Part shown: in pieces, positions 10,902 to 19,679 of the stretch
How positions within the stretch are numbered: the stretch's first letter is position 1
How the letters are laid out: every line of letters begins with the position of its first letter
Origin: Selenomonas sp. AB3002
GTDB lineage: Bacteria > Bacillota > Negativicutes > Selenomonadales > Selenomonadaceae
Direction: 5' to 3'
Assembly: GCF_000702545.1 (NCBI RefSeq)
Contig: NZ_JNIO01000002.1
Span: 682,001 to 746,000 of the forward strand
DNA length: 64,000 nucleotides
The notes under the pieces: model-generated
What the model was told of the DNA's origin: nothing
Database searches by the model: none
The model's input: the letters and a program-made list of their open reading frames with translations, nothing else
Translations under genes and position numbers: made by a program

Positions 10902-10930
10902 AGTATAGCATAACTGGGTATCTAAAACAA
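10902..10930 (-). promoter_or_regulatory. promoter of wbaP-like gene
   Basis: On the minus strand TTGTTT (10925-10930) is separated by 17 nt from TATACT (10902-10907), with TG one base before the -10 (extended -10). It lies about 45 nt upstream of the start codon. Confidence 0.7.
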
Positions 10931-10931
10931 C

Positions 10932-10960
10932 GAAAAAGGCTTCAGCCGAAGCTGAAGCCT
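10932..10960 (-). terminator. terminator, copy of the tRNA-Ser terminator
   Basis: A perfect 10-bp stem (AGGCTTCAGC / GCTGAAGCCT) with a TTCG tetraloop, followed on the minus strand by TTTTT. It ends transcription coming from the 11-15.7 kb cluster. The same hairpin, with small changes, follows tRNA-Ser at 19548-19576 and occurs at 17611-17636. Confidence 0.85.
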
Positions 10961-10998
10961 GATGCCTGATGTTTCATAGTGGCGGAGTGGAAGGATTT
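10937..10998 (-). repeat. truncated copy of tRNA-Ser 3' end plus terminator
   Basis: The sequence from the terminator hairpin through TTTCATAGTGGCGGAGTGGA matches the repeats at 17611-17707 and 19551-19647, then breaks off after about 20 nt of the tRNA-Ser 3' end. It has an extra GATGCCT duplication. It directly joins the pseudogene fragment at 11001. Confidence 0.8.
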
Positions 10999-11000
10999 AC

Positions 11001-11102
11001 CTATCTGCAAGTCAATTCCAGTTTCTCGCCATAGGAGGCACTGCCATACTTCCAGACGGCAGTGATTCCCTGCTCCCTAAAATATGAAAGCCTTTTCTTC
11101 AT
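11001..11102 (-). pseudogene. 3' remnant of AAA-ATPase/PD-(D/E)XK gene
   Basis: A 33-codon open stretch ending in TAG. Its residues YFREQGITAVWKYGSASYG and KLELTCR align with the C-terminus of the complete protein at 17847-19520 (FREQGVDTVWKYGIAFYG, KLEMVCR). Nothing of the ATPase or nuclease core remains. It is fused to a truncated tRNA-Ser 3'-end repeat, so it marks a second, decayed insertion of the same gene family. Confidence 0.8.
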
Positions 11103-11117
11103 TAATCATTCAGGCCA

Positions 11118-12788
11118 CTATTTACGCTTAGAACGAAAGCAGGCTAGCAAAAAAGCAAACCAGGCTAAAAGGGAAAGGACATCCAGCACGTGCATCCATG
11201 GCATCCCCCTGTAAAATACCCTGACCTCGCCAGAGCCGCCGGGCAAATCAATTTGCAAACGATGATCGCCCTCTCGTTCTGTCACAGGCAGTTTCGCGCC
11301 TACCGCCGTTTCTGCTACATAACCGGGGTAGTAAAAGAGGGGCAGCACGACTTGCGTGGAAGTCCCGGCCCGATAAGAAAAGACCATGCTCACGCCAACC
11401 TTTTGCACGTCTGATACGCTAGCTCCCCCTGACTCTAAATCAGAAACGGACAGTGCCTCCCCCGCCCCATTGCGCAGCTCGGCGAATTGCATTCCCCTGT
11501 ACAGGTAATATGATGCAAAATCAGAGGGCAGCGACACGTCAGTCCGCTGGACAAAATCATGCACCCTATAGCGGTGCCCCGACCAATGATAAGACAGGTA
11601 ATAATTTGAATACACTCCGAAAATGGTCAGGCAGGCAAAGGCGAGAACCATAACCTTCCTACTCCCAGGCCGGGAATCCAGGAAGGCCGCAACCCCCATA
11701 GCACCGAACAGGCAAAAAATGGGGCTGCCGAATTTCATAATACGCTCCGGTATCTGAATTGCTGCAACGATATGTCCCACCACAGGCAAATCCGTCAAAA
11801 GATCCCACAGCAAGGGAAAGAAGGGCAGGACCAGGCTCAGTCCAGCAAAAAGCAACAGCCCCTTTTCCCAATCAGACAAGGCCGGAGCCATAGCTTTCAA
11901 GCAGGCGTGGCGTTGCCGTAGGTATAGCAAAAAAGCCAGAAGCAGAAGCGGCCCCAACAAAAACTGAACCCGCAAGACATCCCACCAGGTAAACATGAAG
12001 TTATTATATAGGTAAGGCTGCGAATGATTGACTGCCATCGTGACATAAAAATATAAAAAGGGACACCATACCCAGGCATTGAGCAGGGCGGTGAACCCCG
12101 CCGCCTTGCCCAGGGCCAGCAGACGGTCACTCTCCCGCAATTTTTGTCGACACAGGAGACAGGCAAAAAGAGAAAGAATCACTGTGTAGACGCTGGTCAA
12201 GATATGGGCGGTCAAGATGCCCGTAAAGCCCAGAGTGACCAAGGGCCATTTCCTGCTGTCTCCCCGAAGCACCGAGAAGACACCTGCCAAAACCAGGGGC
12301 AGGAATGCCGCCGCCGTAAACTCCCCTAAGCCAAAATCCAGGTAAAGCCAGGTCAGTCTGTGCCAGCAGACACTGTAAAGCGCTGCGCCTATAAGCCCGA
12401 TGCGCCAGGTACCTGCTAACACGCGAAAGGAATAGCAAGAGACAGCTGCAGTAAGGATATTTACGAACACCACATAAAAACGGGCTGCATCGTACACGGA
12501 AAGCCCCCATCGGCACAACAGGGCCGGCAGATAAAGCAATAAATCCGGGTAGAAAATTCCCTCCAGACTGCCATAGCCGTTGAACTGATAGCCATGCACC
12601 CGCACGGGGAACTGCCCTCCCTCAAGCCCCGCCGCAATCCCTGCGATGCGGTTCAAATGATAGAGCACATCCATCCCGTAAAGATTGTCGCTCAGGATAA
12701 CTGGCAAGGAGCAGACAGCCAGCACAAACACCAGCATAGCCGCCCAAAAGCCCGTATCCTCAACCCAAAAATTGCTTTTCATCCTCAT
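11118..12788 (-). CDS. polytopic membrane protein, PTPS-related/YfhO-like
   Basis: A 556-residue protein with about 10-12 hydrophobic segments and a C-terminal non-membrane part (about residues 400-530) before a last membrane helix. The N-terminal pattern DNLYGMDVLYHLNRIAGIA followed by a periplasmic loop resembles the 6-pyruvoyl-tetrahydropterin synthase-related membrane family, which is GT-C-like. It may transfer a polyprenyl-linked sugar in the periplasm. The ATG at 12788 is preceded by AAAGGA; a GTG at 12830 in frame would overlap the upstream gene. It is the last gene of a three-gene cluster with a GT2 enzyme, the arrangement of Gtr-type glycan modification sets (inference). Confidence 0.65.
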   Translation of the reverse strand: MRMKSNFWVEDTGFWAAMLVFVLAVCSLPVILSDNLYGMDVLYHLNRIAGIAAGLEGGQFPVRVHGYQFNGYGSLEGIFYPDLLLYLPALLCRWGLSVYDAARFYVVFVNILTAAVSCYSFRVLAGTWRIGLIGAALYSVCWHRLTWLYLDFGLGEFTAAAFLPLVLAGVFSVLRGDSRKWPLVTLGFTGILTAHILTSVYTVILSLFACLLCRQKLRESDRLLALGKAAGFTALLNAWVWCPFLYFYVTMAVNHSQPYLYNNFMFTWWDVLRVQFLLGPLLLLAFLLYLRQRHACLKAMAPALSDWEKGLLLFAGLSLVLPFFPLLWDLLTDLPVVGHIVAAIQIPERIMKFGSPIFCLFGAMGVAAFLDSRPGSRKVMVLAFACLTIFGVYSNYYLSYHWSGHRYRVHDFVQRTDVSLPSDFASYYLYRGMQFAELRNGAGEALSVSDLESGGASVSDVQKVGVSMVFSYRAGTSTQVVLPLFYYPGYVAETAVGAKLPVTEREGDHRLQIDLPGGSGEVRVFYRGMPWMHVLDVLSLLAWFAFLLACFRSKRK

Positions 12789-12826
12789 GCCATTTCCTTT
12801 CAAACCAATCCAGCGCCCAGCGGCAC

Positions 12827-13786
12827 TCACTGCAGGTACTCGTCAATTATGTAGCGTGGCCTATGCTTGCTTTCAAGATAAATCTTGCCAATATACTCCC
12901 CTATGACACCTAGAGACAGCAACACTAGCCCACCATTTGCCCATATCGAAACCACAATGCTAGTCCAACCAGCAATCGTGTCCCCCTGATACCACCTAAA
13001 GATAGACCAGAATAGCACAAACATAGATAAAAGGAATAGAGCCAGCCCCGCTTCTGCTATCAGCCTTATGGGACGCACTGTCAGAGAAGTAACTCCCTGC
13101 ACAGCAAAAGAGAGCATCTTGCCAAGAGGATAATGGCTTTCTCCTGCAACGCGCTCCTGCCTGTCATAGTAGACAATATCACTCTTGAATCCCACCATCG
13201 GTACAATTCCACGCAGAAAAAGATTTACTTCCGAAAACTCAGCCAATCCCTCCAGAGCCCTGCGGGAAAGCAAACGGTAGTCTGCATGATTATAAACGAT
13301 TTCTCCGCCTAGTATGTTGACCAACTTATAAAAACCCTCAGCTGTAAACTTCTTGAATGCCGTGTCTGTACTCCGCTTTTTCCTTACGCCGTACACTACA
13401 TCACAATCTTCCTCGCAATATTTGCGTACCATCTCATCTATGGCATCTATGTCATCCTGCAGGTCAGCATCCAAACTAATTACAATATCTGCCCTATCTT
13501 TAGCTGTCATCAGACCGGCCAGCAAGGCATTCTGATGCCCTTGGTTACGCGAAAGTGACACTCCCTGGATGCGTGCATCAGCATCGTGCAGGTTCCGTAT
13601 TATTTCCCACGTCTTATCTCTACTGCCATCATTTACCAACAATATACGGCTTTTAGGCGAGATTTTGTTTTTTTCTATCAACCCAGATAACTTATCCAGC
13701 AAGCGCCTTCCTGTCTCCAGTAAAACCTCTTGCTCATTATAGCAAGGAGAAACCAGATAAAGAACAGGGACAGTCTTTTCAGTCAT
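12827..13786 (-). CDS. GT2 polyprenyl-phosphate glycosyltransferase (GtrB/DPM1-like)
   Basis: A 319-residue enzyme: an N-terminal GT-A domain with SPCYNEQEVL near residue 13 and the ISLDADLQDD metal/nucleotide motif near residue 100, then two membrane helices near residues 225-290. This is the layout of GtrB and DPM-like transferases, which move glucose or another hexose from a nucleotide sugar to undecaprenyl phosphate on the cytoplasmic side. The donor lipid would be used by the two polytopic neighbours. The ATG at 13786 has AAGGTGAG just upstream and follows the stop of the preceding gene by 2 nt. Confidence 0.9.
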   Translation of the reverse strand: MTEKTVPVLYLVSPCYNEQEVLLETGRRLLDKLSGLIEKNKISPKSRILLVNDGSRDKTWEIIRNLHDADARIQGVSLSRNQGHQNALLAGLMTAKDRADIVISLDADLQDDIDAIDEMVRKYCEEDCDVVYGVRKKRSTDTAFKKFTAEGFYKLVNILGGEIVYNHADYRLLSRRALEGLAEFSEVNLFLRGIVPMVGFKSDIVYYDRQERVAGESHYPLGKMLSFAVQGVTSLTVRPIRLIAEAGLALFLLSMFVLFWSIFRWYQGDTIAGWTSIVVSIWANGGLVLLSLGVIGEYIGKIYLESKHRPRYIIDEYLQ

Positions 13787-13788
13787 GC

Positions 13789-15726
13789 TCACTCACCTTC
13801 CGAAATATGATAATGCTCTCGCTTGTATTTATCCAAGCGGTCATGGAACATGGCACGGCTATCTGGATAAATCTCGTCAAATTGCTCTTGCAACCAGTCT
13901 ATGTCATTCAACTGCCAGTCAGACATACGCTCGTATACCTTGACTTCAACGTCATAGCTTCCGTCTTTAAATGGGTGCAGCATATGTGTCCCAATCTGCA
14001 CAAATCTTCGACCTATAGGCGTATCATCGCAAACATCCGCTGCCAGCATTGATACTACTCTCTGGCCATCCGCTCGCAGATGCAGTTGTACCGGCATTGC
14101 AACTGCTACTATCCTCGCCTCCAGGAATTGAAGTGGAAAACCGTCACGTAAATCCACATCAGCTGTCTGCATGAGATTCGGTATTGCTGCAGACTCATAT
14201 GGAAAATGAGCGTAAGCCAAGGTCATCGAATTGTACATCCAACTAGACGCTACGAAATACACTTTTTTCTCTGTTCCAGCTAAATGGTTCAGATCCATAA
14301 TTAGCGAATCTATTTCCGCTAAATCAAATCTTTGCATTACCTTATATGCCCTTCCAACTTTGGCATCAGGATAGAACCCCATATATGCATGTGAAAACTG
14401 CACTGCTGACAGAATGAACAACACAAGCCATGCAACAATTCTGCCTGCAGGTGCCAATCGAGATACAAATCTCCCCCCCCCTAGCGCAATCAACCCAAGA
14501 ACAGGAAGCAGAATAGCTGAGAAATGCTGAACTCCCATCGCCTGTATGCGGCTCATGCCGCATACAGCCACACAGGCCCAAATGGCAAATCCCAGAACCC
14601 AAGGTCTCATTTCACGTTTACCACATGCATAGATGCCCCCTGCCACTGCCAGAAGAATGAGCAGGAGCCCCAAAAAGTCAATAGGTACCTCAAGCACATT
14701 TTTCATAAAGCCACTGCTATAGGCAGAATAGGCCACACTATAGTCCAGCGTATGGGCTGTTCTGTACACCTTCCATAAATAAACCGACATGATGCCTGCT
14801 GTCAGAAGAGCAAAAATAGCATACTCCTTAACCAGTACCCTAAGCCTCTGCCCCATACAATCTTGCTGCCAGGCGACATACAAAACATAAACGGCCGTAC
14901 CTGCAAGAAATCCCGCATACATGAATGTTGCTGAGCGTGCCATCAAAATAGCAAGAATAATCATTAGGCTGACAGCAAGGACACGCTTCCCCTCAAATCG
15001 ACTCCAATCTTTTGATATGATAAGCAACAAAAGCATTGCCTCCACCACGATTTGCCCGCCCTGACTAAACCCCAGCAAGGCCGGCATGGTCGCCAACGGA
15101 TATAAAAACAGCACTCCCAGCAACAAACCGCAAATGGGCACTTCAACCTTTGCCGTCTCTAACATCAGTGTTTTCAAGGCAGTGGCCACGAATACCAATG
15201 AAGGAAATATGACAATAATATATATTAGCATTGACATCGACACATAGCTATTTTGCCCCAGCAAATTCATTGGTACCGACATAAGCAAGGGCACAACATG
15301 TGTATAATCGGACATAAGGCTATGGCGAAATGTTCTAAAAAGGCTATGCGGGTCACAGAAAATTTTTTGGGAATACTCAAGTGCCGGTGCCCAAGTGCTT
15401 AGGTCATCCCATACATAAATGGTTTGATTCTGAGACAAAAGCCACCCAAAAAACATCGAGCTTCCCAAAAAGATAGACACTATGCCGATGCACGCTGGCA
15501 ACTTATTTTCGCTGCGCAAAAACTTATAGTCAACGAGTGAAGCAGCATAAGCCAGTGCCAGAACTATTGCGCCAGACACAGACAGCCACAGGAAAAAGCC
15601 TGTCATCGCCACAAACACAACTGGCAAATGCTCCTGTAATTTGCAACCTAATGCAGAAAGCCACAAGATGGCGCACCATACAATCACCCACCTTGTCCAA
15701 TAATTCTTTTTATTTAAAAATGACAT
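13789..15726 (-). CDS. large polytopic membrane protein, GT-C glycosyltransferase-like
   Basis: A 645-residue protein with about 12 membrane segments and a soluble C-terminal domain from about residue 470. An acidic pair in the first large periplasmic loop (VWDDLSTWAPAL near residue 126) is in the place where GT-C enzymes keep catalytic Asp residues. No closer family can be named. It is first in the three-gene cluster, with GGGGAGG before its ATG. Together with the GT2 enzyme it probably glycosylates a surface polymer or protein outside the membrane (inference). Confidence 0.6.
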   Translation of the reverse strand: MSFLNKKNYWTRWVIVWCAILWLSALGCKLQEHLPVVFVAMTGFFLWLSVSGAIVLALAYAASLVDYKFLRSENKLPACIGIVSIFLGSSMFFGWLLSQNQTIYVWDDLSTWAPALEYSQKIFCDPHSLFRTFRHSLMSDYTHVVPLLMSVPMNLLGQNSYVSMSMLIYIIVIFPSLVFVATALKTLMLETAKVEVPICGLLLGVLFLYPLATMPALLGFSQGGQIVVEAMLLLLIISKDWSRFEGKRVLAVSLMIILAILMARSATFMYAGFLAGTAVYVLYVAWQQDCMGQRLRVLVKEYAIFALLTAGIMSVYLWKVYRTAHTLDYSVAYSAYSSGFMKNVLEVPIDFLGLLLILLAVAGGIYACGKREMRPWVLGFAIWACVAVCGMSRIQAMGVQHFSAILLPVLGLIALGGGRFVSRLAPAGRIVAWLVLFILSAVQFSHAYMGFYPDAKVGRAYKVMQRFDLAEIDSLIMDLNHLAGTEKKVYFVASSWMYNSMTLAYAHFPYESAAIPNLMQTADVDLRDGFPLQFLEARIVAVAMPVQLHLRADGQRVVSMLAADVCDDTPIGRRFVQIGTHMLHPFKDGSYDVEVKVYERMSDWQLNDIDWLQEQFDEIYPDSRAMFHDRLDKYKREHYHISEGE

Positions 15727-15915
15727 TTATACCTCCCCTTCAATTACATATATGTAAATTAGAAAACTCAAAGCCTTCTATTTGTCTGACTTGAGTCATG
15801 GCACATTATTCAATGTGCCCCCATATTTTATGGCAAAATACTGCTGCGAATGAGTATCACCCATCTCAGTTTGATGGTTCACATGTACAATAGTACTTGA
15901 AAGAAGGTGAACATC

Positions 15916-17356
15916 ATGCTGAGATTGCCTGAAATCGGCTCCCACGCTGCCTATAAGCAGCTCCTCTCCCAACGCATTCACAACAGTCGCCTCAAGCGCT
16001 TCGACAATAAGAAGCGCAAACTGGCAGTCAAGCTCATGGCTCTTGACCTTTCACCGGTTGACGAGATCATGCGCCCCTTTTTACTCAGAGGAAGGTCGTC
16101 CTGCATGGCTGCCTTCCTCTATGCTGCGTTCCTACTTGCTTTCCATCTGGCTCAAGTCCACCTCTCTTGTTGATTGGGCTGAACGTCTGCGCTCTGATGA
16201 GTCTCTAGCCATACTGTCAGGCTTTTCACACGACCATACTCCATCATTCGGCGCTTTTTATGACTTCTTTCATCGCCTATGGCCAGGATGCAACAATTTC
16301 TTGCCTCACCTGCGCTACCGCAGAAAGAAACCGTCTAAAGGAAAGAGCAATGGCGAAAAGTCTCCGTCCTTCGACAAAGATAATGCTGCCACCGTCATCA
16401 AGTATTTTGATGGACACAGTGCCGGAGGCATCCTCATGACCAAGCTACACATCATCGGTAAAATCTATAGCAGGGTATTCCTGGCCAGTTCTATTCACAA
16501 AGATCTTCTGGATGTCAGGAAACTGGTTCTGGCCGGTGACGGCACTCCAGTGCAGGTTTCTAACCGTGAGCGCAGCCATTCGATGTGCGATTGCCATGAA
16601 AAGGGCATCGACAATTGCCACCATAAGCGCTGGTTTTCCCAACCAGATGCCAATTGGGGCTGGGATTCCTCCAGAAATTTCTTTTTCTATGGCTATAACC
16701 TCTATCTCTTCACGGATGCTAACTCCGGATTGCCTGTCTTCCCTATCCTGGAGCGTGCTTCCCGCCACGACCTTCCTGCCATGCTGCACGGACTTGCCTG
16801 CATCAAGACGTTCTTCGCAGACTGGAATATTTCCGCTTTGCTCCTTGATTCTGCACACGATGCAATCGCTGTGTACGAGATGTGCAACAAAACCGGCATT
16901 ACGCCCTTCATAGACTTGAACCCTCGTGGCACAAAACCAGCTGAGGACAAAGACTATGATGTGGGAAATGACGGTGTGCCAATCTGTTCCCTTGGGCTTC
17001 CCATGAAACCAGATGGCACTGATAAGAAACGGCACAGAGCCAAATATATTTGTCCGAAGACAAAATACGCTGAAAGACTATGCCTGTGCGACAAGCGCTG
17101 TACCAAATCCACCTATGGCCGTGTTGTGCATATAAGCCCGAAGGATAATCCACGGCTGTTCTGCGATCCTCAACGAGGTTCACCTCAATGGAAGCAAATC
17201 TACAACAAGCGCACAGCTGCCGAACGGGCCAACAAACGCATAAAGATCGACGGGCTGCTGGAAGAAGGACGCCATCACTCTTCCATGATGTGGTATATTC
17301 GGTTATTCGCCATAATATCCGTCATCCACGTAGATGCCTGGCGTAAGCGTGCTTGA
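15916..17356 (+). pseudogene. DDE transposase, split by a frame change
   Basis: Two overlapping frames make one transposase. The first, from ATG 15916 (AAGGTG upstream), runs through EIGSHAAYKQLLSQRI to DEIMRPF; the second continues from about 16080 with YSEEGRPAWLPSSML and runs to 17356. The switch is at CCCCTTTTTACT around 16072-16083, where one T must be skipped (+1). The protein has a DDE/IS4-IS5-like core with LLDSAHDAIAVYE, then a Cys-containing KYICPKTKYAERLCLCDKRC segment, and RTAAERANKRIKIDG near the end holding the catalytic Glu. The rest of the frame is intact, so this is either a recent single-base insertion or programmed +1 frameshifting. The IS family is not assigned. Confidence 0.75.
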
Positions 17357-17383
17357 ACCCTGAAAAAAATATTTTTTCAAGGG
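17352..17383 (+). terminator. A/T-rich hairpin after transposase
   Basis: A near-perfect palindrome (CCCTGAAAAAAAT / ATTTTTTCAAGGG) begins at the transposase stop. It probably ends the transposase transcript or blocks read-in. Confidence 0.5.
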
Positions 17384-17610
17384 CTGGTGTTTTCTGCGCC
17401 AATTTTCCCATACGCTTTCAAGCTACGGTATTCCAGCTTTGTGTAAAAGCATTTCCCATCACCTCAACACCAACAGCTACCCATTCTCATTTAGACTGTC
17501 GACTTTTCTAATTCACATATATCCATATTCTAGCACACAGGCAATACAACGTCTATCTTTCATATATACACAAAGAGTCGGGGAAGAGGCCCAAGTATCC
17601 GATATCAAAA

Positions 17611-17707
17611 AAAAGCTCCAGCCGAAGCTGAAGCCTGATGTTTCATAGTGGCGGAGTGGAGAGGATTCGAACCTCCGCACCAGTTACCCAGCCTAACGAT
17701 TTAGCAA
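17611..17707 (-). repeat. direct repeat of tRNA-Ser(GCT) 3' half and terminator (att-like)
   Basis: 97 bp that match 19551-19647 with only two mismatches, at a constant offset of 1940 bp. It covers the terminator hairpin and the tRNA-Ser sequence from the anticodon loop to the 3' CCA, then diverges. The 5' half of the tRNA is missing, so this is not a functional tRNA. Duplication of a tRNA 3' half is the usual footprint of a tyrosine-integrase element. The following 140 bp up to the ATPase stop hold no clear gene; a short minus-strand open stretch starting MKLHAAPALNALKSAPKR lies there and may be debris of the element. Confidence 0.85.
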
Positions 17708-17846
17708 TTCGGGAACCTAGGTTTTACGTGGTATCAGAGGTTCCTCTGAGCACGTTTTGGTGCCGATTTCAGGGCATTCAGAGCAGGTGCAGCATGTAGC
17801 TTCATTTCAAACTGCCCCCTCGTTGCCCCCCTCTCCAAGAGCTCGC

Positions 17847-19520
17847 CTATCTACAAACCATCTCCAGCTTCTTGCCGTAGAAGGCAATGCCATACTTCCA
17901 GACAGTATCAACCCCCTGCTCCCGGAACTCTGCCAGATAGTCCTTTTGTTCAATCTGTGCCAATGCCTCTTCAGCAGCCTTGGCCAGGTCAGCTTCACTA
18001 TCAGCCACCTTGAACTCCATGACCACGCCAGCCTGCCCCGGCTCATTTGGAAAAATCCCAAGGTCAAAGCGACCATAGCCGCTTTCACGGTTCGACTTGA
18101 CACGGTACTTGGGCAGGAACCATGCCGTCAGCCCTAGCAGGAAACCATGATAGAAGCTTTCCTTATTAGCAGTGTCATGGAAGCTGGCAATCTGTTCCAG
18201 ATATTTCTGTAGGCCGGTAGAAAACTTCTGCGCATCTCCATTGGCAATGGACATAAGAACCATGCGGAGGTCAGTACGCGACATCCTGCCACGATAGCGG
18301 TTCACCACTTCCTTGCGGTAGACCGTGGCAATCTCCCTGTTTGGGATAGCCAAGGTGCATATATGTTCTCCATCATCTAGCCGATTTTCTATAGCTTTCA
18401 GATACCCTGCTGTAAGCAGCATGGTATATAAGGCATCCTTGTTGGTATATATGTCAGAATACACCACAGCTTCATCCACTACTGCATCCACTGGTTCGCC
18501 ACTCAGCAAGGATAGCAGCTTTTCTTCATCAGATGCATCGGCATGTTCCATCATCTCGCCTATGATAGCATTGCCGGAAGTATTCAGCCAAAAGACCTGT
18601 GGCTGGCACCCCTGTTGGAAGTAGTTGATTACCGACCAAGGGTTGTACATTTCCTGCCCGGAAAAGGTGTAGCCATCATACCAGTGCCTTATTTCTTCAA
18701 CCCGGTCAGCGTGTCCCAGGCTTTCTGCCATGGTGCAAACTTCATCTTCCGTAAACCCCATGATATCGGCAAATCGCCCCTGTACAACGCTGGAGATTTC
18801 TAAATTATTCAACGAGCTGAAGATGGTCTCCTTGGCTATGCGCAGCACCCCTGTGATGATACCAAAGTCCAATGAGGCATTGGACTTGAAGGCTGCTCCC
18901 ATAAAGTTACGCATAAAGGAGACAACATCATCATGGAAGTGGTACTGCCACCCCTGCTGAACAGGAACATCATATTCATCCAACAAGATAACAGTCTTAT
19001 CCCCATAATATTGATACAGAAAAGACGATAAGGCACGAAGGCTGTCCTCCAGTTCCTCACGAGTAGCCTTCATATCATTAATCCGCTCATAATATTCTTT
19101 TTCAGCCTGTGTCAGCGGCGATCCGGACTCAGCAAGGAAAGGAAATGCTCTATAGGTTCTTGCCATGATGCGACCGATACGCTGAACCATGGACCCCATA
19201 TCCATCTGCTTCGCATCATTAAGTGTCAGAAAAATCACAGGGCGTCTCCCTTGCTCCGACATATACCTCCCGCCACCAGAAGCAATATCCGTCTCAGCAA
19301 ATAGCTTGCGGTTCTCCTCAGCATTCTCGTTTGTGAAGAAATAATAAAGCATACTCATGGTGAGCGTCTTGCCAAAGCGACGAGGCCGTGTGATAAGCGT
19401 AACCTTACTGCGTTCGTCCACCAACTCCTTGATGAATCTTGTCTTGTCAACGAAATAGCATTCTTCACGTAGCTGTCTGAAATCATCAACGCCCACAGGT
19501 ATCCTGCGATGTTTTGCCAT
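17847..19520 (-). CDS. AAA-ATPase-like protein with C-terminal PD-(D/E)XK nuclease domain
   Basis: A 557-residue protein. The N-terminal part is an AAA-ATPase_like domain (PF09820 type): RPRRFGKT P-loop near residue 48 and VILLDEYDVP Walker B near residue 165. The C-terminal part is a PD-(D/E)XK nuclease-superfamily domain with GRFDLGIF and VVMEFK near residues 480-505, so the D...ExK active site is intact. The start ATG at 19520 has GAGGTG upstream. Such proteins occur in many copies in anaerobe genomes; their role is unknown, with mobile-element or defence functions suggested. Here it is enclosed by tRNA-Ser 3'-end direct repeats, and a decayed relative lies at 11001. Confidence 0.88.
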   Translation of the reverse strand: MAKHRRIPVGVDDFRQLREECYFVDKTRFIKELVDERSKVTLITRPRRFGKTLTMSMLYYFFTNENAEENRKLFAETDIASGGGRYMSEQGRRPVIFLTLNDAKQMDMGSMVQRIGRIMARTYRAFPFLAESGSPLTQAEKEYYERINDMKATREELEDSLRALSSFLYQYYGDKTVILLDEYDVPVQQGWQYHFHDDVVSFMRNFMGAAFKSNASLDFGIITGVLRIAKETIFSSLNNLEISSVVQGRFADIMGFTEDEVCTMAESLGHADRVEEIRHWYDGYTFSGQEMYNPWSVINYFQQGCQPQVFWLNTSGNAIIGEMMEHADASDEEKLLSLLSGEPVDAVVDEAVVYSDIYTNKDALYTMLLTAGYLKAIENRLDDGEHICTLAIPNREIATVYRKEVVNRYRGRMSRTDLRMVLMSIANGDAQKFSTGLQKYLEQIASFHDTANKESFYHGFLLGLTAWFLPKYRVKSNRESGYGRFDLGIFPNEPGQAGVVMEFKVADSEADLAKAAEEALAQIEQKDYLAEFREQGVDTVWKYGIAFYGKKLEMVCR

Positions 19521-19547
19521 ATCACACACCTCGCAATTAAATAACAA

Positions 19548-19576
19548 GAAAAAGGCTCCAGCCAAAGCTGAAGCCT
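19548..19576 (-). terminator. terminator of rrn-tRNA operon
   Basis: A 10-bp stem AGGCTTCAGC / GCTGGAGCCT (one G-T pair) followed by TTTTTC on the minus strand, 12 nt after the tRNA-Ser CCA end. Confidence 0.85.
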
Positions 19577-19647
19577 GATGTTTCATAGTGGCGGAGTGGA
19601 GAGGATTCGAACCTCCGCACCAGTTACCCAGCCTAACGATTTAGCAA
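19551..19647 (-). repeat. direct repeat, tRNA-Ser copy of 97-bp att-like sequence
   Basis: Partner of 17611-17707 (95 of 97 identical). It spans the anticodon loop to the terminator of the complete tRNA-Ser gene. The two copies bound the ATPase/nuclease gene. Confidence 0.85.
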
Positions 19648-19679
19648 ACCGTCCTCTTAAGCCACTTGAGTACCACTCC
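19589..19679 (-). tRNA. tRNA-Ser(GCT)
   Basis: Ninety-one nt with acceptor stem GGAGTGG/CCACTCC, anticodon stem-loop ACGGT-TTGCTAA-ATCGT (anticodon GCT, reading AGC/AGU), a long class II variable arm, T loop TTCGAAT and encoded CCA. It is the last gene of the rRNA operon. Its 3' half is duplicated at 17611-17707. Confidence 0.95.

Follow-up and report, generated by a model that had tools for sequence, protein, structure and literature searches.

A DUF1703 gene in the window (the 64,000-nucleotide stretch of DNA analyzed here, from Selenomonas sp. AB3002 of the rumen Selenomonas ruminantium group) lies between two direct repeats that are probably the attL and attR ends of a tyrosine-recombinase element, which would by now have been stripped to this single cargo gene. 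A repeat search placed the distal copy at 17609-17707 and the proximal copy at 19549-19647 (both minus strand); the copies are 99 nt long, 98% identical, and 1940 nt apart from start to start, in good agreement with the original prediction of 97-bp repeats matching at 95 of 97 positions. Chance can be excluded as their source, since the runner-up direct repeat in the 10-kb region measures 26 nt at 73% identity. As had also been predicted, each copy comprises the anticodon-to-CCA half of tRNA-Ser(GCT) together with its terminator, and the tRNA itself is whole: ARAGORN calls a single intact tRNA-Ser(GCT) (19589-19679, minus strand) at the proximal copy, which would be the regenerated target on the attL side, and calls no tRNA at the distal copy, which starts within the anticodon loop, has no 5' half, and would form the attR side. 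An intact tRNA accompanied by a displaced 3' fragment in direct repeat is characteristic of tRNA-integrated genomic islands, and the window contains this pair. ORF 17847-19520 (minus strand) is the sole gene between the repeats and no integrase gene was found among the ORFs of this interval, both of which had been foreseen. Because the integrase is absent, we class the locus as a remnant rather than as a complete island.

The cargo gene encodes a 557-aa protein that had been described as an AAA-ATPase/PD-(D/E)XK protein, a description that its domain matches uphold: both PF09820 (AAA-ATPase_like; 8.5e-43, 146.9 bits vs. a gathering score of 26.1) and PF08011 (PDDEXK_9; 1.8e-17, 63.6 bits vs. 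a gathering score of 25.5) score above threshold, and the Walker A (RPRRFGK), Walker B (DEYD), and nuclease (D-x(n)-EFK) motifs are all intact. Relative to its orthologue in the congener G001, 64 codons differ synonymously and 27 nonsynonymously, so the gene is seemingly maintained and appears to be under purifying selection. DUF1703 is also amplified in this genome, with 23 matches at 16 places when fragments are counted. PADLOC yielded no defense model, and a sequence search of the PDB returned no match.

Outside the genus, the DUF1703 gene most similar to that of the window (78% at the amino acid level) resides in G126 (contig C448, locus L084), and its surroundings suggest how the window locus may once have been organized. 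Directly upstream of the G126 gene is the C-terminus of a phage integrase (PF00589, 8e-16), while downstream of its stop are 31 nt, GGGGGGCAACGAGGGGGCAGTTTGAAATGAA, identical to the G-rich repeat block of the window (17801-17831, minus strand). These are followed at nearly the window spacing (a single 1-nt gap) by CCGAATTGCTAAAT and then by a diverged tRNA-Ser-like 3' half. In the window, CCGAATTGCTAAAT occupies 17699-17712 (minus strand) and, from this comparison, would comprise the att core in the anticodon loop with the adjoining flank CCGAA. As CCGAA is not tRNA sequence, the window and G126 have in common an element-derived flank beside this core. With up to two mismatches allowed, 22 nt of the repeat block occur once in the window genome and once in G126, and in no other of the 189 family genomes. 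On contig C72 of the congener G003, the gene next to a complete tyrosine integrase (392 aa, PF00589, 3.7e-28) is a PF09820+PF08011 gene interrupted by one in-frame stop; beyond it come GCCCCCCCAATTGCCCCCC and then the 3' end of tRNA-Arg(TCT). Several relatives (L330, L339, and L340) have an integrase and then tRNA-Arg with no DUF1703, some of them with a similar C-rich repeat. From the common order of integrase, DUF1703, and attachment site in G126 and G003, DUF1703 is an accessory gene carried between the integrase and the attachment site, a position that it holds in at least two elements at different tRNAs. The form and place of the G-rich and C-rich repeats are those of putative arm-type integrase sites. 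The peptide RGATRGQFEMK, read past the DUF1703 stop, had also been considered as an integrase tail, and this reading was dropped, as the peptide is absent from related integrases and the G-rich repeats better fit an arm-type site. Neither the DNA of the att region nor this peptide matched phages, and IMG/VR contained no match for the att block, the G126 integrase, or the DUF1703 protein.

Comparison with related genomes indicates that at least two insertions, the 1.9-kb unit among them, have accumulated at this tRNA-Ser. A third, decayed tRNA-Ser 3' end with its terminator is located at 10926-10997 (minus strand); it begins in the T-arm and has small indels. Approximately 5 nt from it is the stop of a second DUF1703 gene, of which the last 33 codons survive (11004-11102, minus strand; 61% to residues 525-557 of the intact protein). 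The space from the distal repeat to this third fragment is filled by three surface-polysaccharide-type genes (11118-15726, minus strand), which are absent from this site in the congener G002 and are probably the cargo of the older insertion, and by an insertion sequence (15748-17522, plus strand) that arrived later. The latter has 22-nt terminal inverted repeats (91%) and an IS1182-like transposase (16043-17356), and it stands before glycosyltransferase genes. In G002, the same rRNA-tRNA cluster ends in tRNA-Ser and a terminator with a sugar transferase gene directly next, the counterpart of the window gene beyond the third tRNA fragment, and the alignment with the window restarts at 10997, inside that fragment (79% over 1625 nt). 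It follows that 10998 to ~19600, or ~8.6 kb, was inserted in at least two steps. An empty tRNA-Ser site had been suggested as a check on the integration model, and G002 provides one for the entire stacked insertion; no genome lacking just the 1.9-kb unit was found among the relatives compared. A sugar transferase likewise follows tRNA-Ser in G003, other genes follow it in G004 and G005, and none of these three genomes has DUF1703 at this place. The repeats and gene of the original prediction are as described; the third tRNA-Ser fragment at 10926-10997, the att-like sequence at 17699-17831, and the 8.6-kb stack had been missed.

The same DUF1703 gene (94% nt identity) also follows tRNA-Ser in G001, where there is no second tRNA copy and where the gene after DUF1703 is the one found directly after tRNA-Ser in G004. 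The gene without the second repeat, in an arrangement indicative of simple local tRNA duplication, had been named beforehand as evidence against integration, and only the first half of that description applies: the gene does stand at the tRNA without a second copy, which favors the idea that the tRNA-Ser 3' end was simply duplicated in place, on either side of a gene already there, but G001 has no tRNA duplication whatever, which points to loss of the distal end or a separate transfer instead. As G126 also has a tRNA-Ser-like half behind the gene at the same spacing, and as the third fragment and the empty G002 site require insertions, we consider local duplication highly improbable. G001 bears on another scenario as well. 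CIMEs are att-flanked derivatives of ICEs or IMEs without an integrase, and the window unit could be a live cassette of this type, excised and moved in trans by the integrase of a related element. Its attL-cargo-attR anatomy, the mere 2% divergence of its repeats, the stacking of insertions at one tRNA, and the 94% nucleotide identity to the G001 gene are all in keeping with such a cassette; however, the attL side has no repeat block and the matching integrase type was not found in this genome at E 1e-15, which leaves a live cassette quite improbable.

Given its att flank and repeat block, and the order of integrase, DUF1703, and attachment site in its relatives, we regard an attL-cargo-attR remnant as the likeliest identity of the window unit. 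In the simplest history, a tyrosine-recombinase element would have integrated at the anticodon loop of tRNA-Ser(GCT), its own 3' half restoring the tRNA, and the G-rich block at 17801-17831 would be where its integrase binds. A deletion that began beside the tRNA and stopped where DUF1703 starts may have removed the integrase, so that attL and attR now enclose DUF1703 and the repeat block. At 10926-10997 would be the end of an older element that used the same tRNA-Ser, it too with a DUF1703 remnant at its end. In G001, the distal end would have been lost, either within the lineage or in a transfer. DUF1703 itself may be of use to the element, conceivably in a selfish or defensive role as a nuclease. 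Integration at a tRNA 3' end and the survival of cargo from a larger element, both as originally proposed, gain support from the G002 site that is empty of the whole stack, from the att flank and block in common with G126 and its integrase fragment, and from the arrangement at the G003 tRNA-Arg. The idea of a minimal mobile unit finds no support, because the unit has nothing known to recombine the repeats. Several observations do count against a remnant: the window has no integrase, the G126 integrase ORF is itself a fragment on a contig without the other end of the element, the Ser-type att block occurs in two genomes only, and the attL side has no repeat block.

A different origin of the repeats is suggested by DUF1703 loci elsewhere. 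Our survey took in 109 loci of the family, another 39 that come for the most part from the wider phylum, and 16 in plasmid and phage records of Clostridia, Bacteroidota, and Fusobacteriota. Duplicated protein-gene ends (ilvA, tadA, and hsdR) enclose approximately 4% of 153 DUF1703 loci. In G002, the last 151 nt of ilvA are duplicated around DUF1703 (91%), as are 94 nt of tadA in G004, where the distal copy has decayed, 42 nt of a gene for an outer-membrane-like protein in G180, and 41 nt of a gene ending TGTFEINRMNVSVY in G561, where every change is synonymous. On the Cetobacterium somerae plasmid NZ_CP092521 (L360), DUF1703 is located between hsdS and hsdR, and 71 nt of the hsdR start are duplicated upstream of it (92%); hsdS and hsdR are annotated, and the other gene names were read from translations. 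The ptsI and guaA terminators are also duplicated around DUF1703 copies, and repeats consisting of a terminator only (L007, L008, and L139, with one control gene likewise) are weaker evidence because terminators may resemble each other. Few bases separate DUF1703 from either copy in the duplicated-end loci; at ilvA and hsdR it almost abuts both, and an integrase site would not fit. Since these loci have no integrase, nor space for a repeat block, a repeat-forming process of DUF1703's own is conceivable in the window too. DUF1703 would then be mobile itself, a homing-like nuclease that cuts at gene ends, with repair copying in both the gene and the end of its target. The target would thereby remain whole, the tRNA-Ser repeat would be one case among others, and no integrase would have taken part.

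Two comparisons of the surveyed loci argue for such autonomy. With the upstream copy ending ≤100 nt from the DUF1703 start and the downstream copy starting ≤200 nt from its stop, matched flanks (E ≤ 1e-5) were found at 8 of 109 loci, two of which are tandem DUF1703 pairs, vs. 7 of 11,772 mismatched pairs, most of these 7 being tandem or orthologous loci. With tandem arrays left out, duplicated ends surround 6 of 153 DUF1703 genes vs. 1 of 229 control genes from the same loci (P = 0.018), a modest excess, with small numbers and with loci from related genomes that are not fully independent. The ilvA copies count for an autonomous DUF1703 as well, because 13 of their 14 differences fall at third codon positions (P = 6e-6) and 12 of 13 changed codons are synonymous, a bias suggesting divergence in separate genomes at a time when each end was still functional; the proximal and displaced copies are both within the range of five congeners. 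In the window, 5 nt lie between the end of the older DUF1703 remnant and the tRNA fragment beside it, which also agrees with autonomy. Nevertheless, the window and G126 have a repeat block and core flank typical of an integrase attachment site, integrases adjoin DUF1703 in both G126 and G003, duplicated ends occur at a few percent of loci only, and cleavage by DUF1703 is hypothetical. For the window repeats, an autonomous DUF1703 is thus an unlikely source. For the family at large, we would tentatively entertain the possibility that DUF1703 proteins are bacterial single-gene mobile elements, inserting at gene ends, carrying or creating a copy of the target end, and leaving the target whole; tRNA genes, ilvA, tadA, hsdR, and perhaps integrase genes would be their speculative targets. 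DUF1703 may travel on integrase elements whose targets are gene ends and which afterwards lose their other parts, or it may move by itself, with a copy of its target's end, and have landed beside integrases as well. A search for common targets among diverged DUF1703 genes matched only orthologous or tandem pairs, and a protein-level search for duplicated C-termini gave low-complexity-frame noise beneath its top matches.

Several other arrangements were observed among the surveyed loci. At L253 (G004, contig C80), the ptsI 3' end and terminator stand in tandem with no DUF1703 between them and with another ATPase as the next gene, perhaps the scar of a lost DUF1703 unit. At L258 (G003, contig C240), some DUF1703 copies are intact and others carry internal deletions; fragments resembling the ptsI 3' end or promoter accompany them, and G003's own ptsI resides on another contig. 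At the ilvA insertion (L118; G002, contig C37), a Cas9-like gene starts ~370 nt past the DUF1703 stop, Fic-family genes are beside or near DUF1703 on four plasmids (L360, L361, L363, and L365), and DUF1703 alternates with RHS-core proteins and small hypothetical genes on Persicobacter psychrovividus pPP8 (L357). Tandem arrays of 2-3 DUF1703 genes are frequent (L126, L157, L174, L179, L197, L309, and L355).

The window locus would document an integrase-free island remnant of a kind that island finders requiring an integrase would miss, and its relatives show that, in elements at tRNA-Ser and tRNA-Arg, the place between the integrase and the attachment site is taken by a large, uncharacterized family of ATPase-nucleases. 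The survey of other loci offers a testable signature for how this family may spread, namely gene ends duplicated around DUF1703, with one clear case diverged at synonymous sites. If true, single-gene mobility would account for the size and divergence of DUF1703 families in bacteria of the rumen and gut.

NTPase-nuclease transposons were reportedly described by Zhang et al. in 2016. A review of that work (PMC5289972) links NTPase-REase proteins with transposable elements, so mobility may have been claimed before. The assignment of DUF1703 is due to Knizewski et al. (PMC1913061), and its expansion in Cardinium has been described (PMC6387759); the available portions of these papers agree with our genes in architecture, motifs, and the many diverged paralogs per genome, and make no mention of a position between integrase and attachment site or of the duplicated gene ends of some copies. 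The closest likeness to the duplicated ends is found in the mORFs of fungal mitochondria, such as those at Allomyces and Glomus atp6, in which an endonuclease gene lies amid two 3'-end copies and moves with a copy of its target's end (PMC3630166). An endonuclease gene between duplicated target ends is, in form, also what the window has, as do ilvA, tadA, and others, and the ilvA copies of G002 resemble mORFs in differing mostly at synonymous sites. Unlike mORFs, DUF1703 is bacterial, has another nuclease fold plus an ATPase, and its cleavage is hypothetical, and the likeness fits the other DUF1703 loci rather than clearly the window. Both tRNA-gene islands and integrase-free att-flanked derivatives are already known kinds, as far as outlined in PMC4383910 and in the IME review PMC5704250, from which the terms CIME, ICE, and IME are taken. 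The window unit would resemble CIMEs in its attL-cargo-attR order without an integrase and in accretion at one site, and differs in having a single gene and an arm-like block on the attR side only, the attL side being bare. Compared with the Islander-type tRNA islands (PMC4383910), it has one cargo gene and no integrase, while a tRNA restored on one side with its 3' fragment displaced to the opposite side, the stacking at one tRNA, the att-like block, and the integrase in relatives are all features in common.
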